From NCBI GenBank assembly GCA_015486015.1, contig WFSL01000010.1:41540-105539 (forward strand): DNA of 64,000 nt, read 5' to 3'. Positions 660-55,450 of the stretch are shown in pieces (within the stretch, counting starts at the first letter, position 1; every line of letters starts with the position of its first letter). Source of the DNA: Aquificota bacterium (GTDB lineage: Bacteria; Thermosulfidibacterota; Thermosulfidibacteria; Thermosulfidibacterales; B14-G1). Position numbers and translations under genes: made by a program. A model generated the notes under the pieces. That model was given only the letters and a program-made list of their open reading frames with translations, was not told the origin of the DNA and did not search any database.

Positions 660-1477
660 GGATCGGGAAGGCAAGTTATCTCAACACCCGTCCTGTATAC
701 TATGGACTCGAGCGGGGTGCTGTTCCGGCAAGGCCAGGCTGGACGTTCATTGAGGGAACCCCTTCTTACCTCAATGACCTCCTCAAAGCTGGGGCCTTGG
801 ACATATCTGTGGTTTCCAGTGTGGAGTACGCGCATCACTGGAGAGACTACTACATCTTGCCAAACTTGTGCATAGGGGCCGATGGTGATGTAAAGAGTGT
901 GCTTTTCTTCTCCAAAAGGCCTTTGGAAGAGCTGTCGGGCTATGAAGTATGGCTCACTAAAAGCTCTCTTACCTCCAAAACCTTGGTGAAATGGATACTC
1001 GAGGAGAGGGGAGTGGAGCCCGTTTATAGAGAGTTTACCTTGGGTGATGAGGTCTTCATCAATCATGCCACTGAGGCCATCCTCCTCATAGGGGATGAGG
1101 CACTTAGGAAGAGGGAAAGCCGCCTCTTCCCCCATGTGCTGGACTTGGGGGGCTACTGGAAGGCCAAAACGGGATTACCCTTCGTCTTCGCCCTGTGGTG
1201 CGTGCGCCAGGAAGTGGCTCACGCTCATCCCCAAGATGTGGAGGAGGTGTGGCATGCTCTCCTCTCATCTAAGGTTTATAGTTCCAAGCGTATGGCCGAG
1301 ATTGCTAGACTGTGCCACCGTGAAGTAGGTCTCTCATTAGAGCAGTGCAGTTCATACCTTGAAGGACTGGACTTTGACCTCGCACCTGGGCATATCAAAG
1401 GCATGAAACTATTTTTTTCCTTGCTGGCAGAGAGGGGGCTTGTTGCTCAAGTTCCCCCTTTGAGGTTCTTTCCGTAA
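656..1477 (+). CDS. mqnA: Chorismate dehydratase MqnA
   Basis: MqnA dehydrates chorismate to 3-[(1-carboxyvinyl)oxy]benzoate, the first step of the futalosine menaquinone pathway, in the cytoplasm. The 273-residue length is normal. The N-terminus has the family's ASYLNTRP segment, followed by the SVVSSVEYA region of the periplasmic-binding-protein-like fold. The start is a TTG whose bases overlap the mqnE stop (TTGA). No later in-frame start would keep the conserved first residues RIGKASYLN. It lies between mqnE and mqnC in one operon, two bases from mqnC. The mqnB/mqnD functions are not in this window. Confidence 0.9.
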
Positions 1478-1478
1478 G

Positions 1479-2513
1479 GTGGGGATGGAACGGATAGGTG
1501 AGGAAGAGGCCTTGGCTTTATTTGATGAGGACCTCCTCAGCTTGGGAAGAAGGGCCTACGAGGCGAGGAGGGTGCTTCACCCGGACAACTTGGTCACCTT
1601 TTGCGTGGACAGGAACATCAACTATACCAACATCTGTATCAGCAGGTGCTGCTTTTGTGCCTTCTGGCGCGACAAGGGAGATTCAGAGGCCTTTTTGCTG
1701 CCTAAGGTGGAGATCTTTAAAAAGATTGAGGAGACCATTAACTTAGGGGGTACATCCATTCTTATACAAGGGGGACTTCATCCCGATTTGGAGATTGGCT
1801 ATTTTGAAGATCTCTTTTCCTCCATCAAGTCCCGGTACCCCATCCATATTCATGGCCTCTCACCTCCTGAGATCTGGCACATTGCTCGGAAATCGGGGCT
1901 CACGTTGGAAGATACTATCCGGAGGTTAAAGGCAGCAGGGCTGGACTCTATCCCTGGAGGAGGGGCGGAGATCCTCAGCCCAAGGGTAAGGCAGAGGCTT
2001 TCCCCCAATAAGGTTTCAGTGGAAGGGTGGCTGGAGGTGATGGAGACGGCCCATAGGCTAGGACTCAAGAGTACGGCGACTATGATGTTTGGCCACATAG
2101 AGGGGCCAGGGGACATAATTGAGCACCTGGATCGTATCCGAAGTCTCCAGGACAGGACAGGAGGCTTTACTGCCTTCATTCCATGGACCTTCCAGCCCCT
2201 TCATACAGGATTGGCACATATAGAGAAGGCTACGGCAGTGGATTATTTGAGGGTCCTTGCCATCTCAAGAATCTACTTGGACAATGTGCCCAACGTCCAG
2301 GCCTCCTGGGTAACCCAAGGTGCTAAGATTGCCCAGTTGGCCTTGTACTTTGGGGCAAATGACTTCGGCTCTACCATGATCGAGGAGAATGTGGTGGCTG
2401 CTGCTGGGGCTACTTTCCGCATGAGCAGGGATGAGATTATACGCTGCATCAAGGATGCGGGATTCACCCCTGCCCAGAGGGATACGCTTTATAGGGTGAT
2501 TAGGACCTTTTAA
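1479..2513 (+). CDS. mqnC: Cyclic dehypoxanthinyl futalosine synthase MqnC
   Basis: This radical SAM enzyme cyclises dehypoxanthinyl futalosine to its cyclic form on the way to menaquinone. The three iron-sulfur cysteines are C53, C57 and C60 in a CxxxCxxC motif (ICISRCCFC). PGGGAEILS and the FIPWTFQP segment are typical of the family, and 344 residues is a usual length. The start may be GTG 1479 or ATG 1485; AAGGTGGGG sits just before the ATG. The gene ends four bases into the convergent pckA gene. It is a paralog of the partial mqnE upstream, and the position after mqnA favours MqnC. Confidence 0.9.
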   Translation: MGMERIGEEEALALFDEDLLSLGRRAYEARRVLHPDNLVTFCVDRNINYTNICISRCCFCAFWRDKGDSEAFLLPKVEIFKKIEETINLGGTSILIQGGLHPDLEIGYFEDLFSSIKSRYPIHIHGLSPPEIWHIARKSGLTLEDTIRRLKAAGLDSIPGGGAEILSPRVRQRLSPNKVSVEGWLEVMETAHRLGLKSTATMMFGHIEGPGDIIEHLDRIRSLQDRTGGFTAFIPWTFQPLHTGLAHIEKATAVDYLRVLAISRIYLDNVPNVQASWVTQGAKIAQLALYFGANDFGSTMIEENVVAAAGATFRMSRDEIIRCIKDAGFTPAQRDTLYRVIRTF

Positions 2514-4108
2514 GCGGGTCCACCTTGTAGGATCTGGGGTCCTACCTGTGACCTGTAGCCTTGGAAGTTTTCGTGAAAGAGGGCAGCCAACCTCCTTTTC
2601 TGCTTACTGTAGGCTCCCTTATCTTTCCAAGTCCCCTTGGGGTCCAGGATCTCTGGAGGCACATCAGGACAAACCTTGGGCACGGCAAAGCCAAAGACCT
2701 CGTCCTTCCAGTACTCTACCCCTTCCAGTTCCCCATTTAGGATAGCCTTAATCACACGCCTCGTATGCTTGATGGAGATTCTGTGACCAACCCCATAGGG
2801 CCCTCCAACAAGGCCTGTATTAACCAACCATACCTTCACCCCATAGCGCTGGATCTTCTCCCCCAGAAGTTTTGCATAGACCCCAGGGGAAAGCACCATA
2901 AAGGGGGAACCAAAGCAAGCCGAGAATACGGCCTGGGGCTCTGTAACCCCTACCTCTGTACCTGCCACCTTGGAGGTATAACCTGATATGAAGTGGTACA
3001 TAGCCTGTTCCGGCGTGAGCCTTGCTACAGGAGGGAGCACACCGAAGGCGTCGTATGTGAGGAATACAATATTCTTAGGATGGCCAGCTAAGCCCTCCCG
3101 GACTATACGGGGGAGGTGAGTGATGGGAAAGGATGCACGGGTGTTTTCAGTGAGGGAGTCATCCTCGAGATTCACCCTCCTTGTCCTCACATCTATGGTC
3201 ACATTCTCCAGGATGGTGCCAAAGCGTCTGGTGCATTCATAGATGTCTGGCTCGTCCTCCTTTGAGAGGCGTATTACCTTGGCGTAGCACCCCCCTTCCA
3301 AGTTGAATATGCCTTCCTCGCACCATCCATGTTCGTCATCACCAATGAGATACCGCTCTGGGTCCGTAGAGAGGGTGGTCTTTCCAGTACCAGAAAGTCC
3401 AAAGAAGAGCGCCACATCACCTTTGTCTCCCACATTGGCTGAGCAGTGCATGGAGAGAACGTCTTCCTTGGGCAGATAGTAATTCATCATGGTGAAGATG
3501 GCCTTCTTTATCTCTCCAGCATATGAGGTCCCGCCGATCAAGACCACCTTTTCCTTTAGATTGATAACGATGAAGACCTCGGAGGCGGTACCGTCTATCT
3601 CTGGGATGGCGTGAAAGCGCGGTACTACTATAACGGTGAAGTGGGGCTGGAAGGCAGAAAGCACGTCGGGGTCAAGCTCGCGGATAAACATGTTCCGGGC
3701 AAAGAGACTGTGCCAAGCATACTCTGTAATCACCCTTACTGGCCTTCGGTAGCGGGGGTGCGCCCCTGAATAGCACTCCTGAACAAACACATCCTTGGAC
3801 TGAAAATAGGCGCAGAGACGCCTGTAGAGCAGGTCAAAGGTGAGGGGTTCCATGGGCTGGTTCTCCTTTCCCCAGTATATCTCTCCCTCACTTGAGGGCT
3901 CCCTCACCAGAAACTTGTCCCTGGGAGAGCGGCCAGTGTGGTGCCCAGTCCTCACCACAAGGGGTCCAAGGTGTGCCAATAGCCCTTCCTTTCTACGGAT
4001 GGCCTCTTCGTAAAGGGAGGGTGTTGGAAGGTGCCAATAAATCCTGGCTAGGTTCTTCAGACCGTGCATCTCCAGCCCTGAATACTCTGTCTTCTCTTCC
4101 ATGGCCAT
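2510..4108 (-). CDS. pckA: Phosphoenolpyruvate carboxykinase (ATP)
   Basis: PckA converts oxaloacetate and ATP to phosphoenolpyruvate, CO2 and ADP, the entry to gluconeogenesis, or runs in reverse to fix CO2 anaplerotically. The protein has the P-loop GLSGTGKTTLS near residue 240 followed by IGDDEHGW, both hallmarks of the ATP-dependent family, and about 532 residues, the family norm. I chose ATG 4108; a GTG at 4114 overlaps the stop of the preceding UspA gene, and GAGTGAGG before the ATG is a reasonable ribosome binding site. It is co-transcribed with the UspA gene. Its 3' end overlaps convergent mqnC by four bases, so no separate terminator fits there. Confidence 0.93.
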   Translation of the reverse strand: MAMEEKTEYSGLEMHGLKNLARIYWHLPTPSLYEEAIRRKEGLLAHLGPLVVRTGHHTGRSPRDKFLVREPSSEGEIYWGKENQPMEPLTFDLLYRRLCAYFQSKDVFVQECYSGAHPRYRRPVRVITEYAWHSLFARNMFIRELDPDVLSAFQPHFTVIVVPRFHAIPEIDGTASEVFIVINLKEKVVLIGGTSYAGEIKKAIFTMMNYYLPKEDVLSMHCSANVGDKGDVALFFGLSGTGKTTLSTDPERYLIGDDEHGWCEEGIFNLEGGCYAKVIRLSKEDEPDIYECTRRFGTILENVTIDVRTRRVNLEDDSLTENTRASFPITHLPRIVREGLAGHPKNIVFLTYDAFGVLPPVARLTPEQAMYHFISGYTSKVAGTEVGVTEPQAVFSACFGSPFMVLSPGVYAKLLGEKIQRYGVKVWLVNTGLVGGPYGVGHRISIKHTRRVIKAILNGELEGVEYWKDEVFGFAVPKVCPDVPPEILDPKGTWKDKGAYSKQKRRLAALFHENFQGYRSQVGPQILQGGPA

Positions 4109-4110
4109 CC

Positions 4111-4560
4111 TCACTCCACCACTAAGACCGGGACGGTGGTAAACTCCAACACCCTGAAGGCTGCACTCCCCATGAGCAACTTCTTCACTCCCCTCTTTCC
4201 AATCTTCCCCATGATGATAAGATCGACCCCTTCCTCATTCGTGGCTTCTATGATCTGTTGGTAGGGGATCCCCTCCTTCAGGATGAGCTTCACAGGCACC
4301 CTATATTTTTGAAGGAGAATCTCTGTAGAGTGCAAAAGTGCCCATGCTTGCTCCTCAAGTTCCTTTTCAAGGGCATCGGGCGCCTTACTTACAAACCTCT
4401 TTAACTCATCTATCACCAATTTATCCACTACGTGCAGTAGGATGAGCTCGGCACCCTGATCACTCGCCAGTCTGGCCGCCATATGTGCGGCTTTGTTAGC
4501 CTGCTCGGAACCGTCCACAGCTACCAGTATTTTCTTGAAAAGCTTTCCTTTTCTAAACAC
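4111..4560 (-). CDS. Universal stress protein, UspA family
   Basis: This is a 149-residue cytoplasmic UspA-family protein. The N-terminus KKILVAVDGSEQA is the family's first strand and nucleotide-binding loop. The C-terminus has the G-x2-G-x9-G-S pattern (GKIGKRGVKKLLMGS), which marks the ATP-binding subgroup. The start is a GTG preceded by GGGAGG. It sits directly upstream of pckA in the same direction, with almost no gap, so it probably shares a transcript with it. The exact stress role cannot be read from the sequence. Confidence 0.88.
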   Translation of the reverse strand: MFRKGKLFKKILVAVDGSEQANKAAHMAARLASDQGAELILLHVVDKLVIDELKRFVSKAPDALEKELEEQAWALLHSTEILLQKYRVPVKLILKEGIPYQQIIEATNEEGVDLIIMGKIGKRGVKKLLMGSAAFRVLEFTTVPVLVVE

Positions 4561-16860: not shown

Positions 16861-18046
16861 ATGTGGGATGAAAGAAAGATAAGGCTGAAAGGGATAATGA
16901 AAAGACTGGAGCAGCTTGGGAGGCATCTTTGACATCTCTGGTAAGGAGGCCAGGATAGCGTCCTTAGAGGAGAAGTCGTATAGGGATGACTTCTGGCATG
17001 ATCCCGCCAAGGCTAAGGAGATCTTACAAGAGAAGAGCCACCTGGAGGAGGAGGTTAACACCTTTAAGGGGCTGTTAAGGCAGTGGGAGGATGCCGATGC
17101 CCTCGTGGATCTTGCCCAGGAAGCTCAGGATCTCTCGCTGGTGGAGGAGATAGATGGGCAGATTTCCCAGTTAGAGGCTGCCCTCCAGCGTGCAGAGCTC
17201 AAGGTTTTCCTCTCTGGGGGAGAAGACCGGAACAATGCGATTGTATCCATCAATCCCGGTGCGGGGGGTACTGAATCTCAGGATTGGGCTGCTATGCTTC
17301 TTCGCATGTACACCCGATGGGCTGAGGGAAAGGGATACAAGGTGAGGCTTTTGGATTACCAGGGGGCAGAGGATGCGGGGATCAAGGGGGCAACTTTCAT
17401 AGTGGAAGGCCCCTATGCCTATGGGTATCTTAAAGGGGAGACGGGGGTGCACCGATTGGTGCGTATTTCCCCCTTTGACGCTGCCAGGAGGCGCCATACC
17501 TCCTTTGCTTCTGTGTTTGTATACCCGGAGGTGGAGAGGAGTATAGATATAGAGATAAGGGATAAGGACCTCAGGATTGAGACTTACAGGGCCAGTGGTC
17601 CAGGGGGACAGCACGTCAATGTGACAGATTCGGCTGTGCGCATAACCCACATACCTACAGGAATTGTGGTCCAGTGTCAGAATGAGCGTTCCCAGTTAAG
17701 AAACAAGGAGATGGCGATGAAGGTCTTAAAGGCACGCCTTTATGAGCTCAAGAAGAAGGAGATGGATAAAGAGAAGGAGGCTTTAGAGAAGGGCAAGAAG
17801 GAGATCGCCTGGGGCTCTCAGATTAGGTCATATGTGCTCCACCCTTATAGGATGGTAAAGGATCATCGTACAGGGGTTGAAAGGGGAAACGCAGATGGGG
17901 TATTGGATGGAGACCTGGACCCATTTATAGAGGGATACCTCTTATGGGCCGGGAAGAAGGGGAATTACGCACGTCCCCCCTCTTTCCAGGGTGCCTCTAT
18001 GAGAGGTGAAGATAGGGGGACGGAGGAGAAAACCCAGGGGAGGTAA
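16861..18046 (+). CDS. prfB: Peptide chain release factor 2 (programmed +1 frameshift)
   Basis: RF2 releases finished peptides at UGA and UAA codons. The gene is in two frames. ATG 16861, with AGGGGGG upstream, opens a 23-codon frame ending at CTT TGA (16927-16932). Skipping T16930 continues at GAC 16931 into the long frame up to TAA 18046. The product is about 394 residues if read as one protein. The GGQ catalytic motif is present ([11 protein letters not shown]), and the stop-recognition region lies upstream of it. The last codons include the ribosome binding site of rpsB, so expression is coupled to the translation operon. A conventional gene caller would start it wrongly near 16916. Confidence 0.94.
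16918..16933 (+). promoter_or_regulatory. Programmed +1 frameshift site of prfB
   Basis: GGGAGG (16918-16923) acts as an internal Shine-Dalgarno, CAT is the three-base spacer, and CTT TGA C (16927-16933) is the slip site. This is the arrangement known from E. coli prfB, where low RF2 lets the ribosome slip past UGA and so autoregulates RF2. Confidence 0.93.
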
Positions 18047-48159: not shown

Positions 48160-49290
48160 TTATAATCTTAATTTTTCTCTGATGGCCCTCTCCAAGGCTG
48201 CGTCCCGCCTCTCTAAATATACGGCCTTGGCCTTTCGAGAATGGAGCACCTGGAGGTAATGCAGGAGTGCGATGAGAAACATGCCACCCAGCAGATTCCC
48301 GATAGAGGCGGGAAGGAAGAGCCTTGCGAACCACTGCCCAAATGTGACCTTGGCCCCGTAAACTACACCCAGGAGCACCTCTGAGGTGGATACCACCACA
48401 TGCGTAAAGGAGCCCACAGCCATAACAAAAATGCAGCTCCAAATGGCCATGAGCTTAGTCATGTCACTCTTGGTGGCCAGGACCAGCCATGTCATAGTGG
48501 TAATGATGGCACCAGCGAAAACAGCGCTTACGAGGGTCCCAACAAAGGGCCTGCTCATCTTTAAATGCGCCAGCTCTAAGAGGTGATGGATAGGGAGTGA
48601 ACCCAGCACCATGCTTCCCCCAGCCCAAACTATAGCTGCGAAGAGCACGGCGCCTAAGAGATTCCCCAGGAGGCTGAGGCCCCATAGCCGGCCCAGGGAC
48701 CAGGCAGGCAATCTCTTTTCGATAACAGGTAACACTGGTATGAGGAAATTTTCTGTAAAGAGCTCACTTTGAGAGAGCTTCAATAGGACAAAGCCTATGG
48801 GGAAGAAGAGGGCCCCCACCAGAGATGCCACCTTTGGGTTGGCTGTAGAATCTAAGGCGCCTGCCGCTGATGCCATGGCTACTGCTCCAAAAGTCACATG
48901 AATAGCACCAATTACCCCTGACATGAGCATCTCCAGCCACGGTCTTCCCAGCCTATTGATCCCTTTCTCCAATGCCAGGTCGAACACGGCAAGGGGGTCT
49001 TCGTCTTTGTCTTCCTCTCTGCCTTTTATATGGTAAAGGGCATCCAAGAACCGCTGGGAATGGTCCATCTCATCGGCCATGATTTGCTCCAAGGCCTGCC
49101 TGATCTCTGGATCGGGGCATCCCATAGCGTCCTGCCTGTAAGCCTGAACAGCTATATCCTCAAGCACAGTGTTCAATCGCAAGAGATCCCCGTCAGTCTT
49201 CATCTCATCCACTAAGGCCATGATCTCCTTTTCTTCCACAGGCAAGTCTGGTGGGAGCTTTCCTCCCAAGGACTGGATGCCCCTGGCCAA
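48160..49290 (-). CDS. Formate/nitrite-type channel with C-terminal half of a fused ferritin-like domain
   Basis: As read, this is a 376-residue open frame from a TTG. Residues about 40-80 carry the second half of a ferritin-like di-iron site (E44, then E74 and H77 in ADEMDH). From about 115 on there are six hydrophobic segments of the FNT family, with SELFTENFLIPVLPV and the closing NLLGGMFLIALLHYLQV like E. coli YfdC. The first half of the ferritin-like domain is in the other frame just upstream (49212-49454), so the gene seems broken by a one-base loss. A formate, nitrite or hydrosulfide role is possible; substrate unknown. It is the last gene of the redox-stress run. Confidence 0.8.
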   Translation of the reverse strand: MARGIQSLGGKLPPDLPVEEKEIMALVDEMKTDGDLLRLNTVLEDIAVQAYRQDAMGCPDPEIRQALEQIMADEMDHSQRFLDALYHIKGREEDKDEDPLAVFDLALEKGINRLGRPWLEMLMSGVIGAIHVTFGAVAMASAAGALDSTANPKVASLVGALFFPIGFVLLKLSQSELFTENFLIPVLPVIEKRLPAWSLGRLWGLSLLGNLLGAVLFAAIVWAGGSMVLGSLPIHHLLELAHLKMSRPFVGTLVSAVFAGAIITTMTWLVLATKSDMTKLMAIWSCIFVMAVGSFTHVVVSTSEVLLGVVYGAKVTFGQWFARLFLPASIGNLLGGMFLIALLHYLQVLHSRKAKAVYLERRDAALERAIREKLRL

Positions 49291-49454
49291 GATGGTATAT
49301 GGTTGGCCTCCACATTGGCTATAGACTTCAATAGAAGGGCTATGTCAGGGTCCCTCACTCTCTCCACCTGGTACCAATAGATTCTAATGGCTGCCCTTTC
49401 CGAGAGGAGATCGGCTTCGAGTCTCTCCAGCAGTTTTTCTTTGGTGTATTTCAT
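49212..49454 (-). pseudogene. N-terminal fragment of the ferritin-like/FNT fusion (frameshifted)
   Basis: This frame begins with ATG 49454 and encodes the first helices of a ferritin-like domain, with metal residues E19 (SER) and E49/H52 (EANH). After about residue 53 the sequence turns nonsensical while the sense continues in the channel frame. From 49454 to the channel stop is 1295 bases; one extra base would give 432 codons. The likely site is the CCAGGGG-like run near 49278-49290 on the minus strand. I infer one intact fused gene originally, or a sequencing indel. Confidence 0.7.
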
Positions 49455-49484: not shown

Positions 49485-49859
49485 TCACTTCACAATCACT
49501 GTGGTGATGTCTACCCCCGTATTTCCTGTCTTGGGATCGTAGGCATAAACGGTGAACTTGTAGGCCCCCTTATCTCTCAGCTCTACGTGGGCCTTAAAGT
49601 GACTGGTCTTTCCAGCAAATCTCAGGGGGAGGATCTTTGTGTTGCCAGTGGAGCCCGAAAGCACTCCCTTGGAGAGGATTTCCCGAGTGAGGGCATCTCT
49701 TACCACTACCAAGCCCCCACCTATTGATGTGCCTATAAACTTTGCGTCCATGGCCCTGGCCCTGACAACCACCCTGGTCTTTACGGCCCAGGCACTGCCC
49801 ATAAAGAGTGCACTTAGAAGGGACAGGCAAACGGCCAAAACACAAACGATCCTCTTCAT
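49485..49859 (-). CDS. Small exported protein of unknown function
   Basis: This is a 124-residue protein with a clear signal peptide (about 1-25, ending GSAWA) and a mature part dominated by beta strands and few charged clusters (TRVVVRARA, KAHVELRDKGAYKFTVYAYD). I do not recognise the family. I chose ATG 49859, with GAGGAGG upstream inside the end of the rubredoxin gene; a longer in-frame start at 50021 would run through that gene and lose the signal peptide. It lies between rubredoxin and the ferritin-like/FNT gene in the same direction. Confidence 0.72.
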   Translation of the reverse strand: MKRIVCVLAVCLSLLSALFMGSAWAVKTRVVVRARAMDAKFIGTSIGGGLVVVRDALTREILSKGVLSGSTGNTKILPLRFAGKTSHFKAHVELRDKGAYKFTVYAYDPKTGNTGVDITTVIVK

Positions 49860-49869
49860 GGTTGCCTCC

Positions 49870-50031
49870 TCACTCTTTTGGATTAAACATCTCCTTGCTT
49901 GCGCCACACACTGGGCATACCCAATCCTTTGGCAGCTCCTCAAAGGGGGTTCCAGGAGGTACGCCATTATCTGGGTCTCCCTTTGCTGGATTGTACACGT
50001 ATCCGCACACGCTGCATACATACCTTTTCAT
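49870..50031 (-). CDS. Rubredoxin (53 residues)
   Basis: This is a small iron-sulfur electron carrier. The iron is held by C6 and C9 (VCSVCGY) and C39 and C42 (WVCPVCGA). The PKDWVCP segment is diagnostic. The start is ATG 50031. It lies between the flavin reductase and the exported protein, near the flavodiiron remnant and superoxide reductase, and so would be the natural electron donor for both. Confidence 0.96.
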
Positions 50032-50582: not shown

Positions 50583-51212
50583 CTATCCCCCTTCCACCAG
50601 CTCTTTTAGTCTCTGGGCTATCTGTAGGCCCAGGTTGTGACACTCCTGAAGGACCTCCTTGGTGGGCCCATACTTGGATTTCACCTCTCCCACTACATTC
50701 ACCTTCATGGCTTCCAGGACCTCCCTTACCTGCTTCACCGACTCCCCGCTCCAGCCATAGGAACCAAAGGCCGCCCCAATCAGGTTCTGGGGCCTCAGGC
50801 CCTTGAGGTAGGTGAGGACGTCAGCCACCGAAGGGAACATGTTGTTGTTCAGGGTATGGGAACCCACCAGCAAGGCCCCGGCATCCAGAACCTCAGTAGC
50901 CACATCGCTCCTGTGGGAGCCACCGATGGGGGTGAGCTTCGCCATGGTACCCCCGGCGGCCAGGCCATCGGCAATGGTCCGTGCCATGAGGTCAGTGCCC
51001 CCCCACATGGTGTCATAGGCTATAACGGCCTTTCTGGTGGGCTTTTGAAGGGCCCAGTTTTCATAAAGCTGGAGGATCCAGGAGATGTCCTCTTCCCTTC
51101 TCCAGAGTGGCCCGTGGTCCGTGGCTACCACCTTGGGTTTGAGGCCCATCTTTTTCACCTGGTCAAGGAGCTTGGGGACCACATGAGCTCTTCTCTGAAA
51201 GGGTACTTGCAT
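50583..51212 (-). CDS. Flavodiiron protein, C-terminal fragment with flavodoxin domain
   Basis: This is the downstream open frame (209 residues if started at ATG 51212) of a flavodiiron protein (rubredoxin:oxygen/NO oxidoreductase, FprA-like). Residues from about 11 on show the end of the metallo-beta-lactamase domain ([14 protein letters not shown], with its last metal histidine), followed by a complete flavodoxin domain ([41 protein letters not shown]). The N-terminal part is in another frame and about 140 residues are missing between them, so this piece is not a working diiron reductase. It could at most survive as a flavodoxin-like protein. Confidence 0.75.
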
Positions 51213-51367
51213 GTGTCCATTAAGGTCACCTTATCTGCCAGGATGAGATAGGCGTTGTAGGTAGAGCCCTCATGGGTGGTATAGCCGTGGAAATTCCTCA
51301 GGGCCCAGTCTATCACTCCAACCCAGTAGACCCTGTCTGTCACTTTCACCCCTCTTAGGTTCTGCAT
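51155..51367 (-). pseudogene. Flavodiiron protein, N-terminal fragment
   Basis: ATG 51367, with AAAGGAGGA upstream, opens a frame whose first 62 residues are the start of a flavodiiron protein ([38 protein letters not shown]). The frame then stops, and sense continues in the other frame at the end of the beta-lactamase domain. The HxExDH iron ligands that should follow are absent. The combined gene is 785 bases against about 1200 for an intact one. Confidence 0.75.
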
Positions 51368-51439: not shown

Positions 51440-52711
51440 TCACTGGGTTTTGGCTGCCTCCTTTCTCATTTGAGCTGCTAATTCCTTGATCTCCACCAGG
51501 TCCTTCTTCAGCTTGGCGTACCCGTACCAGGTGGTGTAATCGGGCATCATGTGGAAGGCCGCCTGGAAGGTCTTCATCCTGTGGTCCATGAACATCTCAT
51601 AGAGGACCTCTTCGACCCTTGTATTGACTTCATAAAAGTTGAGAAGATCGGGATATGGCCAGGTCGCCTGGTTTGTCTTCTTCTTTATTATCCCATCTCT
51701 GTAAAGACCGGCAATGATCTCAATCGCCTCTGCAAACAGCTTATCAGAGGCCTTGATCATAAGATCTGCATTCTTCAAGTTCTCCTTGGCAAAGGCAGCA
51801 GAGTGGCACCTCTCACAGGTCTTCTCTTCTTGGGCCCTCACCTCCTCCCAAGCTCCTGGGGTGAGCCTGGCCATGTTGGCAGCTTTAACAAGCTCGAGTC
51901 TCTTTGTGGGTTTACCGTTGGCATCCAAAACCCCAAGAGCCTTGAGAATGGTCACCCTATAACCCAGCCACTCCTTGTCCTTTTCTGGAAGCCTAAGACC
52001 CAGAAAACCCCAGGCAGTTATCACCTTGTGGTTACCATTGGGCATATGGCAGTCCTGACAAGTGGGTCCCCTGTGGGCCTTGGGATTCGTCATATAAGCA
52101 GCACCGTGCTTGGAGTGGTACCACATCTCCCATTGGGCATGGTCGAAACCTGTGTGGCAGCTGCTGCATGCCTCGGGCCTTCTGGCCTCCTCCACAGAGA
52201 AGGCATGCCTGGTATGGCAGTTCTGACAGTCCATGCCGTACTTGTAATAGGACCTATACTCGCCAGCCAGACCTTTTTTTTTCACCTCATCATTCACGAC
52301 TCCCAGGTTATGGCAGCCATTGCACCCCTTCTGCCCAGCTATGAAGGCCTTAGGCTGTATGTGGGAAAAACCTGGGAAGGCTGTTATGGGCAAAAGGCCC
52401 AGGGCGTGCTTTCCACTCATATACTGGTTCACCTGCTTTCTATGGCACCTTTTGCATGTGGCAATGGTGGGGAGCTTGGCCTTATCTGCGTCTTTGGCAT
52501 TGGTATGGGCACTGCCATGGCACGACTTGCAGGTTAGTATTTTGGCCATTCTACCCCGGTTGAAGTCCTTCACAATGCCTGGAGTCACTTTAGCATGGCA
52601 CCCCTCACACTTGGATGGCCTTGCATGGACAGGAGTACCCCATATCAATAAAACAGTCAGGGCCACAAACCAGCACATAGCATTTTTGATACCTTTGATA
52701 TATCTTATCAT
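51440..52711 (-). CDS. Octaheme c-type cytochrome, hydroxylamine oxidoreductase-like (copy 1)
   Basis: This is an exported cytochrome of 423 residues with a signal peptide (about 1-30) and eight CxxCH sites between residues 35 and 305. The spacing and the CQNCHTRHAF and CSSCHTGFDHAQWEMWYHSKHG segments match the HAO/octaheme cytochrome family. The helical C-terminal part without hemes is also usual. Members oxidise or reduce hydroxylamine, nitrite or other small nitrogen/sulfur compounds; the substrate is not determined. It has GGAGGT before ATG 52711. It stands upstream of the flavodiiron remnant. Confidence 0.87.
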   Translation of the reverse strand: MIRYIKGIKNAMCWFVALTVLLIWGTPVHARPSKCEGCHAKVTPGIVKDFNRGRMAKILTCKSCHGSAHTNAKDADKAKLPTIATCKRCHRKQVNQYMSGKHALGLLPITAFPGFSHIQPKAFIAGQKGCNGCHNLGVVNDEVKKKGLAGEYRSYYKYGMDCQNCHTRHAFSVEEARRPEACSSCHTGFDHAQWEMWYHSKHGAAYMTNPKAHRGPTCQDCHMPNGNHKVITAWGFLGLRLPEKDKEWLGYRVTILKALGVLDANGKPTKRLELVKAANMARLTPGAWEEVRAQEEKTCERCHSAAFAKENLKNADLMIKASDKLFAEAIEIIAGLYRDGIIKKKTNQATWPYPDLLNFYEVNTRVEEVLYEMFMDHRMKTFQAAFHMMPDYTTWYGYAKLKKDLVEIKELAAQMRKEAAKTQ

Positions 52712-52851
52712 AATACACCTCCGGTATTAATTGATGGTCAATGATTAGCAGTAATAACTCGCCATAATATAAACCTCTTCTTTTCAAAGCCCTGATATGC
52801 CCAGGGTGAAATGAGACCTAAAAACTGCTTACGCGCCTGTAATAGGGTCCC

Positions 52852-52878
52852 AAGCCTTATCTCATTTGGATAAGGCTT
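52852..52878 (-). terminator. Hairpin after the superoxide reductase gene
   Basis: AAGCCTTATC (52852-52861) pairs perfectly with GATAAGGCTT (52869-52878), touching the superoxide reductase stop. There is no T tract, so it may be a terminator, a processing site or an RNA-stability element. Confidence 0.5.
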
Positions 52879-53252
52879 TAACTTCTCCAGAGACCATGGA
52901 GATTACAATACTCCCTGGCTGTTACCCTTTTAGACTTCACAGGGAAGGAGGCCTCAGGTGCATCCCCGGGATTGAGAAATTGCTTATAGACCTTGCCATC
53001 AGCGATAAGCTCTATCCATTCTATGTAGTGTTTCTCCTCCATGGGATGAGCCACGCTTCCCACCTTCACCTTGTAGCCCTCAGCCACCTCTTCAATCATA
53101 GGCACGTGCTTCTCTTGGGCGGCGTCAACAGACCCTATTTCCAGCTTCATCATGGGTTGGTTGCAGCACACCAACTGGCCCTCGCCACCATGAAGTACCT
53201 CCACGATGTTTCCGCAGACCTTGCATTTGTAAACCTCTAACCTTTCAGCCAT
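52878..53252 (-). CDS. Desulfoferrodoxin-type superoxide reductase
   Basis: This is a 2Fe-type superoxide reductase (about 124 residues) that reduces superoxide to peroxide with rubredoxin electrons. The N-terminal desulforedoxin domain has cysteines near 10, 13, 29 and 30 ([15 protein letters not shown]). The catalytic center II has EKH (near 47-49), [11 protein letters not shown] and CNLHG near the end. I chose ATG 53252, after GGGAGG; an open frame extends to 53342 but looks non-coding. It lies between a ferritin-like gene and an octaheme gene, flanked by hairpins. Confidence 0.94.
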
Positions 53253-53304
53253 GTCGTTTGCCTCCCAATCTAAAATGATTTCACTATAAAATCTTATCAA
53301 ACCT

Positions 53305-53331
53305 AAAAAGGGGGCTTTGTCAAGCCCCCTT
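53305..53331 (-). terminator. Rho-independent terminator after the ferritin-like gene
   Basis: A ten-base-pair stem, AAGGGGGCTT (53308-53317) with AAGCCCCCTT (53322-53331), has a four-base loop. Read leftward it is followed by a run of T. It separates the ferritin-like and superoxide reductase genes. Confidence 0.85.
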
Positions 53332-53368
53332 GAGAAAACCACATTGAATCCGAGGGATCCGATACCTT

Positions 53369-53860
53369 CTATCTTCCCCTCTCATGGAGGTCTTCCAATA
53401 ATGCCTGAAGATCGTCTTCGTGTTCCACTTCGTCTTTGAGAATCTCTAAGGCCATGTGATAGGTGAGGGGATCCTTGTCCTTGGTGGCCTCAAGGAGTTT
53501 GTTGTACACATCAATGGCACACTGCTCTCCCTTGATATTCTGTTTTAAGATGCTCTCCACATGTGGATCCTCTGGGACATCGTATCCACAGTTACTCACC
53601 TTGTACCAGTCTTCTGGCTTGAGCAGGGGTGTGCCTTCCAACTGCATGATCCTGTCCAGGACCATGCCTGCATGCCTCAGTTCATCTGCTGCGTGTTCCT
53701 CAAGCTCTGCCACTACCTGACCCTTCATGCGCCCCTTTACCACCTTAGCCCCTATCCAGTACTGGTAATAGGCAAGCCACTCGTCCGCATAGGCCTTATT
53801 AAGCAGCTCTATAAGTCTTTCCACGTCAAGCCCTACAATCTCCCTTCCCTTCGTTCCCAT
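53369..53860 (-). CDS. Ferritin-like di-iron protein (Dps-like/bacterioferritin type)
   Basis: This is a 163-residue four-helix protein. Iron ligands are an E in DEWLAYYQ, ExxH in DELRHA, an E in KGEQCAID and ExxH in DEVEHEDD. The arrangement is that of ferritin-like/DPS-like proteins. It is likely to store iron or detoxify peroxide. AAGGAGG precedes ATG 53860. It stands in the oxidative-stress run and is followed by a terminator. Confidence 0.9.
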
Positions 53861-53914
53861 TTTCTCCTCCTTAAGGTTTTAGTTTAAAGTAACCATCATG
53901 TTAAAAGCAAATTT

Positions 53915-53948
53915 AAACTACAAGGGGCGAACTGTCAACATTCGCCCC
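53915..53948 (-). terminator. Terminator after the second octaheme gene
   Basis: GGGGCGAA (53924-53931) pairs with TTCGCCCC (53941-53948) over eight bases. Read leftward the stem is followed by TTGTAGTTTAAATTT, moderately T-rich. It sits just after the octaheme stop. Confidence 0.65.
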
Positions 53949-53956
53949 CTTCCTGG

Positions 53957-55450
53957 TCAATCTTTTTTGGCCTTGAGCTTAAATTCAAGCCAGTCCTTCA
54001 TTTGCTGAATATTCTTACTCATATACCACCGACCGTTGGCAAAGGTTCCATAATCGGCCCCGGCCATGCCTGAGGCAAATCTGGTGGAGTTGGCAAAGAA
54101 AAGCCATTGCTCCACCCACATCTTCTCAATGGCCTCGTTGAAGATACTGTCGCCTTGAGCTAACCCTTTGGCTGCTCCAGTCTTCCAGGCTTTGAGGAGG
54201 ACCTTGGTGGCGGTCAGGGTCATGGCATTGGTGGTCTCAATGGTGTGCTCAAAACGTGCAAATTGATTGTCTACCCATGTGGTGCTGTGACAAGACATGC
54301 AAACCTTCTCCATGTTCCTCTTACGCTTGGTCATTTCTTGGGCATCAATGAGAAACTGAGAGACAGGCTCACCCGTGAGTTCCGTGGGGAGGGGAAGTCC
54401 AGCCTTGTTCTTGATGATGGTGGTATCGGCTGACTTGGGGTGCGGGTGGGCATATATCAAACCAAAGATGCGCCAAGGAATTCTGTCGTTCATTTGATGG
54501 GTCCTTTTTGCCACCACATTGCCGTTCTGATCTACGAGGAGGCTGACATGGCACGTGGCGCAGGTGGGGGCAGAGAAGTCCTTTCCCACTACCCAGGGCA
54601 CATCTTCAAAATTCCAGTCTTTACCCATGGAGTAGAAGATGTTTCCATGCTTGCTCACCATGTACACCTTGTAGGCAGGGACATCGGGCCCCTTGTGGCA
54701 CTCGGCACAGGTATAGGGTTTCCTGGCCATAGCAATGGAGAAGCGATGGCGGGTGTGGCAGGAGGTGCAGGAGCCCATCGAACCGTCTGGATTGATCCTA
54801 CCCACCCCTTGATTGGGCCAACCGGAGAGCACCGGAAACTCCATCTCTCCCAGTTCCGTTTCCCTCTTCTCCTTCCCCTTGACCTCTACCTTGGTGCCAT
54901 GGCAATAAGCGCAGGACTCTGCTGTGGTGACCTTATTAGCGGGTTTATAAGTGATGTTTGTCCCATCGAAGTCCTGCACACCATCAGTGGTCTCCACCAA
55001 ATTGTGATAGACGGGATTGTTAAGCAAGTTGCCATGGGCGTGTGACATGAGGTTTTTGCTATACTGTTCTGCCTCTAAGGGATGGCATGTGGCACAATCC
55101 TTTGGGGTTACTACTACATGGACCTGGAAGCCGTTGTGCTCAAAGGTGTCCTTGTGGGCGTCGGGATTAATTGTGTGGCATTCGGCACAACCAATAACTG
55201 TCCCAGCTAAGTCTGGAGGAACCTTCGATGCCGAAAGCATCCTTTCCACTATAGGCTTTTTCATAGCCTGCATGGGTGTGATTTGGGAGTGGAGGCTCTT
55301 ACGCCAGTCTTCCACGATGCCTGGAGTCACCTGAGCATGGCAGTCGAGACATGACTGGGTAGCTTCGCTAATAGGGGGCTGTGCCCAAGTGATAGAGCAC
55401 CATCCCAGTAGCACCATAAGGGGAAAAGACAGATAAAATACCTTTTTCAT
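53957..55450 (-). CDS. Octaheme c-type cytochrome, hydroxylamine oxidoreductase-like (copy 2)
   Basis: This is an exported cytochrome of 497 residues. A signal peptide (about 1-23) is followed by eight CxxCH sites at about residues 34 to 388. CTSCHTRHRFSIAMARKPYTCAECH and MVSKHGNIF are hallmarks of the HAO family. It is longer than copy 1 (423 residues), and the two are paralogs. AGGAGGT precedes ATG 55450. It follows the pentaheme gene with an 85-base gap. Direction of the reaction and substrate are unknown. Confidence 0.88.
   Translation of the reverse strand: MKKVFYLSFPLMVLLGWCSITWAQPPISEATQSCLDCHAQVTPGIVEDWRKSLHSQITPMQAMKKPIVERMLSASKVPPDLAGTVIGCAECHTINPDAHKDTFEHNGFQVHVVVTPKDCATCHPLEAEQYSKNLMSHAHGNLLNNPVYHNLVETTDGVQDFDGTNITYKPANKVTTAESCAYCHGTKVEVKGKEKRETELGEMEFPVLSGWPNQGVGRINPDGSMGSCTSCHTRHRFSIAMARKPYTCAECHKGPDVPAYKVYMVSKHGNIFYSMGKDWNFEDVPWVVGKDFSAPTCATCHVSLLVDQNGNVVAKRTHQMNDRIPWRIFGLIYAHPHPKSADTTIIKNKAGLPLPTELTGEPVSQFLIDAQEMTKRKRNMEKVCMSCHSTTWVDNQFARFEHTIETTNAMTLTATKVLLKAWKTGAAKGLAQGDSIFNEAIEKMWVEQWLFFANSTRFASGMAGADYGTFANGRWYMSKNIQQMKDWLEFKLKAKKD

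Follow-up and report, generated by a model that had tools for sequence, protein, structure and literature searches.

A ferritin-like domain with predicted di-iron ligands is fused to a YfdC-type FNT channel in one small bacterial phylum

The window, a stretch of 64,000 nucleotides from a 1.62 Mb genome in 43 contigs, contains two overlapping frames on the minus strand that together encode a ferritin-like domain and an FNT channel (48160-49454). Frame 1 (49212-49454, minus strand) encodes 80 residues and matches the orthologs only over codons 1-52 (49454-49299), the remainder being out of frame. Frame 2 (48160-49290, minus strand) encodes 376 residues, which comprise the remaining ferritin-like domain and the entire FNT channel. 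It matches the Pfam FNT model (PF01226) with 181 bits (cut-off 34.6, E 3e-53), and its start gives a weaker match to a ferritin-like Pfam model. This gene is the sole FNT match in the genome. The initial annotation had read the two frames as one frameshifted gene, and its coordinates and arithmetic are correct, although it named no strand. Judged by the open orthologs, the locus would need one further base to form an intact frame of 432 codons, and the 1295 bases plus one correspond exactly to the intact ortholog L023:4836-6128 with its stop codon.

Searches with frame 2 against relatives and GTDB genomes returned open frames of 433-482 codons, counted from stop to stop, with identities to frame 2 of 87% within the genus, 69-73% within the family, and 62-65% within the order. 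The gene is found in eight of the nine genomes of the window's phylum: six hold open fusions, one holds an open copy cut by a contig end, and the last is the broken copy of the window. The ninth genome, which lacks the gene, is 71% complete. Counted from the matching start codon, the six full-length open orthologs comprise 428-431 residues, and each holds the two domains in a single frame. Uninterrupted two-domain homologs, the check proposed at the outset, are thus known from the window's own genus, family, and order, and the two halves are clearly not always separate genes. The idea of two separate genes, or of frames that overlap by chance, which the separate frames in the window itself might suggest, can be given practically no weight, as the relatives have a single open frame, the combined length agrees to within one base, frame 2 resembles the orthologs from position 54 onward and lacks a matching start of its own, and the intact orthologs refute the idea. 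Because eight of nine genomes carry the gene, mostly open, the fusion is genuine; the damaged window copy is the exception and the least informative member.

The lesion is located at 49294-49298 (minus strand), in CATATACC, where a DNA alignment with three relatives shows five bases in the window versus six in the relatives. The site is directly 3' of the His52 codon, right past the first ExxH pair. A full-protein profile matches the window in two pieces that flank the break, positions 1-52 (E 5e-21) and 54-431. The break had earlier been placed at a G run; this placement has to be given up, since the GGGG run aligns with the relatives with no gap, which rules out a slip there. A programmed frameshift was also rejected: no relative is shifted at this place, and, by eye, the frame overlap has no classical slippery heptamer at the break. 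The comparison with L023 gives dN/dS values of 0.044 ahead of the break and 0.045 for the channel; in the remaining ferritin-like part, dN is 0.10 and synonymous sites are saturated. Selection on the fusion gene has been strongly purifying (dN/dS ~0.04), and therefore the loss of the base is either very recent or an artefact of sequencing or assembly.

We examined how widely the fusion is distributed in 1,393 genomes (the search tool's count), nearly all of them with a full-length profile. Of these, 386 sampled the domain as a whole, and the others came from the window's phylum and from five more that hold YfdC-type channels. According to the search tool's taxonomy, the relatives carrying the fusion belong to one small phylum and one order. 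No fusion was found among the listed matches from the ~1,380 genomes besides the fusion carriers' group, in which archaea were covered via plasmids only. All listed channel-covering matches outside the phylum begin at profile position 121 or later, and ferritin-only matches are located elsewhere. Plasmid records gave plain channels and no fusion; haloarchaeal plasmid matches from query residue 90-93 turned out to be plain FNT genes of ~240-255 codons with no ferritin-like part annotated. A scan of contigs with short peptide patterns had a reach limited to close relatives, and a phrase-matching search of the literature found nothing relevant on a ferritin-like and FNT pairing. In a tree of 46 FNT domains from a quick search, the eight fusions form one group (98%), which indicates that the fusion arose once. 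The earlier impression that this pairing is unfamiliar holds in that it did not turn up in the other lineages and papers searched, and needs correction in that the channel is of the YfdC type, not a classic formate/nitrite channel. The pairing of these two known domains is real and conserved, and apparently undescribed.

The ferritin-like four-helix domain occupies 49015-49454 (minus strand), equivalent to ortholog residues 1-147, and is identified by a Pfam Rubrerythrin match and by fold. All four full-length orthologs tested pass the Pfam cut-off (43.4 bits for L023, cut-off 22.8). A profile of the domain matches solved structures of bacterioferritins, Dps-like proteins, sulerythrin, and encapsulated ferritins. 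The ferritin-like part of the AlphaFold model has pLDDT values of mostly 85-94, and its fold matches thioferritin, PA4880, and mini-bacterioferritin with Z ~20 and rmsd 1.6-2.1. The E, ExxH, E, ExxH ligand pattern noticed in the initial annotation is complete and consists, on the minus strand, of E19 (49398-49400), E49xxH52 (49299-49310), E99 (49159-49161), and E129xxH132 (49060-49071). These six residues are invariant in seven orthologs from three families, which are 46-68% identical to L023 over the domain; Tyr26 and Tyr106, each seven residues past a ligand Glu, are invariant as well. The N-terminal domain is a ferritin-like four-helix bundle, and its ligands suggest that it may bind a di-iron centre. 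It has the fold (Z ~20, rmsd 1.6-2.0) and the two ExxH pairs in common with bacterioferritin, thioferritin, and Dps-like proteins (2vzb, 8w1d, 9qq4, 1nf4) but, unlike them, is tethered to a membrane channel, so that assembly into a ferritin cage is unlikely. All seven orthologs have Ala at position 50, one past the first ExxH Glu, where bacterioferritin carries its haem-ligand Met (M52 in E. coli Bfr). The orthologs contain no paired CxxC motif of a rubredoxin-like FeS domain, and only the core Pfam domain is present. Therefore, the domain belongs with neither the haem bacterioferritins nor the classical rubrerythrins.

A short acidic linker of ~8 residues (48991-49014, minus strand; ortholog residues 148-155), which has the lowest model confidence between the domains, leads to the FNT channel (48241-48990, minus strand). 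On the basis of PF01226, the model, and the fold, the channel contains a pre-TM amphipathic helix, TM1, a broken TM2 (omega loop), TM3, TM4, a broken TM5 (S loop), and TM6, and the six transmembrane helices of the original reading are all present in the model. A first AlphaFold model from 7 rows was poor in the channel part (pLDDT 62.5), and a second one from 14 rows, with seven actinobacterial FNT rows added, covered the whole chain with a mean pLDDT of 80.9. TM2 and TM5 are broken in the manner of FNT channels (model helices 207-228/238-245 and 331-347/353-365). The closest solved channel folds are LciA from Chlamydomonas (PDB 9v2a; Z 33.5, rmsd 1.8 over 251 residues) and FocA (Z 32.4), with structural-alignment identities of 26% and 22%, respectively; neither has a ferritin-like domain. 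The pore His, the omega-loop Thr, and the vestibule Lys are all retained. The Thr (48754-48756, minus strand) lies in LFTEN at the position of FocA T91, the His (48400-48402, minus strand) lies in GSFTH at the position of FocA H209, and the Lys (48559-48561, minus strand) is at the position of FocA K156 and HSC K148, where it is absent from E. coli YfdC. In the orthologs, the pore His (H352) and the omega-loop residues L232 and T234 (Leu-x-Thr) are invariant. The C-terminal tail (48163-48240, minus strand) is basic, with 8 K/R versus 4 D/E in L023 residues 404-431, and is predicted to be cytoplasmic.

To classify the channel, we used the published definitions of the YfdC-alpha and YfdC-beta subgroups and their diagnostic residues (PMC5525234, Table 4). 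In FocA numbering, ten diagnostic positions read as YfdC: F202 to M, A212 to V, L79 to F, F90 kept, N172 to G, S92 to E, T93 to N, E208 to T, L37 to S, and N113 to L. In the quick tree, the fusions are located, apart from FocA and NirC, in the half holding E. coli YfdC and the actinobacterial FNTs (100% SH-aLRT, 46 rows). By these residues and this tree, the channel belongs to the YfdC class. The fusions share with YfdC-type FNTs (E. coli YfdC, YfdC-alpha, and YfdC-beta) F79, E92, N93, G172, M202, T208, and V212, and differ from them in the added 147-residue ferritin-like domain, in the Lys at position 156, and in a Leu at position 254, where F/Y/W is expected. The residues at positions T34 (M) and G86 (mostly Q) are also outside the YfdC-alpha majority. 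The pre-TM helix usual in YfdC channels is retained, and the di-iron domain is placed ahead of it. The YfdC groups have no assigned function, known substrate, or operon link (PMC5525234).

No conserved operon was found around the fusion among the relatives. Only L023-L026 share the next genes, a radical SAM gene followed, if the contig extends that far, by TilS. In the same-genus genome, the L023 neighbours of the fusion at 1316-4439 (an mqnC-like radical SAM gene, an unnamed minus-strand gene, and a universal stress protein) correspond, by likeness of the N-terminal sequences only, to window positions 1479-4560, ~44 kb from the fusion. As this trio in the window lies apart from the fusion, the fusion gene has apparently changed its position within the genus. 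A frame of 178 residues (49485-50021, minus strand) with no Pfam match at E 0.01 lies immediately upstream of the fusion. Further upstream on the same strand (51440-55450, minus), there are two multihaem cytochromes (Multi-haem_cyto), a superoxide reductase (desulfoferrodoxin), and a separate soluble ferritin; this cluster was not seen beside the relatives' fusion genes.

The placement of the di-iron domain bears on what it may do. Both the N- and C-termini of FNT proteins are cytoplasmic (PMC5572259). Together with the basic C-terminal tail, this leads us to expect the di-iron domain above the channel's cytoplasmic mouth. The N-terminal helix of FocA is mobile, can reshape or block the pore, and takes part in the contact with PflB (PMC12559229). 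Iron in a bacterioferritin centre is a stable cofactor in either oxidation state (PMC7762939), which favours sensing or redox catalysis over iron transit. For these reasons, namely cytoplasmic placement, a mobile helix in FocA, and cofactor-like iron, we favour a redox- or iron-responsive channel, followed by a tethered enzyme. Our leading interpretation, which we put forward tentatively, is a lineage-specific membrane protein in which the di-iron domain senses iron or redox state and controls a small-anion channel of the YfdC class. In this protein, a cytoplasmic domain of the bacterioferritin/rubrerythrin type would be connected with the channel's N-terminal helix by a linker that is short and flexible, and the channel is presumably a pentamer. 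The di-iron site may change its state upon iron binding or upon oxidation by peroxide or oxygen, and the resulting movement at the cytoplasmic mouth, where the N-termini of FNT proteins lie, may gate the passage of a small monovalent anion or a weak acid through the pore.

Several observations count against such gating. The linker has pLDDT values under 50 at residues 148-152, so mechanical coupling finds no support in the model. Ferritin-like domains usually pair as dimers and FNT channels are pentamers, which creates a symmetry mismatch. Since there is no conserved operon partner, the neighbourhood gives no hint of what the fusion senses. The gene is, moreover, interrupted in the window. It is possible, though we consider it rather unlikely, that the fusion represents a new class of anion channel gated directly by metal or redox state, in which a ferritin-type di-iron centre would control an FNT pore with no soluble regulator. 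YfdC-type channels make up a large share of the FNT family without assigned function, and a natural fusion suggests a testable connection to iron or oxidative stress. If true, direct gating would give the YfdC class its first built-in physiological clue. The fusion is a trait of almost the whole candidate phylum, and the intact orthologs, rather than the damaged window copy, are the members to study.

The di-iron domain may instead be a peroxidase or ferroxidase held at the membrane, next to a channel that moves a small anion or weak acid related to that chemistry with no gating. The channel would then pass on a substrate or product, or balance charge and protons. We regard this as rather unlikely, though it ranks next after the leading interpretation. 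The ligand set is that of catalytic di-iron proteins, a model docks PflB over the cytoplasmic vestibule of FocA to deliver formate (PMC12559229), and the window gene lies near a superoxide reductase, a flavodiiron protein, a flavin reductase, and a separate ferritin. However, the oxidative-stress neighbours are not conserved beside the gene in relatives, the common di-iron reactions have no obvious monovalent-anion product, and a rubredoxin-type electron-donor domain is absent. A structural role, in which the four-helix domain would mainly stabilise or cluster the channel, or dock it to soluble ferritins, with no signal to the pore, seems less probable again. It agrees with the low-confidence linker, which suggests loose tethering, and with the domain of MbfA, which dimerises and for which an interaction with bacterioferritin was reported by two-hybrid assay (PMC4902296), but such a role would not need six metal ligands and both Tyr residues to be invariant across three families.

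MbfA and Er-VIT, in which an N-terminal ferritin-like di-iron domain is attached to a VIT iron exporter, are the nearest analogues of the fusion. A similar function in iron handling, with the domain collecting and oxidising iron and the membrane half exporting iron or an iron-linked ligand, is quite improbable. The layout is that of MbfA, whose cytoplasmic N-terminal ferritin-like domain has ferroxidase activity and is essential for export (PMC7762939), and the domain shows a weak similarity to MbfA, which at E 2e-4 falls well short of the curated cut-off. However, no C-terminal VIT/CCC1 domain was found; the membrane half matches FNT only, a channel family with no expected iron transport and with monovalent anions or weak acids as known substrates, and, apart from the usual FNT His, no metal ligands occur at the pore positions read. 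The fusion carries the idea behind MbfA, in which a transporter bears a ferritin-like domain, over to another membrane family, that of an anion channel.

Other reading frames in the window also deserve mention. An FprA-type flavodiiron protein at 50583-51367 (minus strand) is damaged, with its ends in different frames; compared with its 409-codon relative L077, it is missing approximately residues 79-209, which hold the HxExDH metal-binding stretch. Damage to both the fusion and the flavodiiron gene within 3 kb suggests local assembly trouble or real decay. The prfB gene (release factor 2; 16862-18046, plus strand) retains its programmed frameshift, with the short frame ending in CTT TGA C where the main frame takes over.
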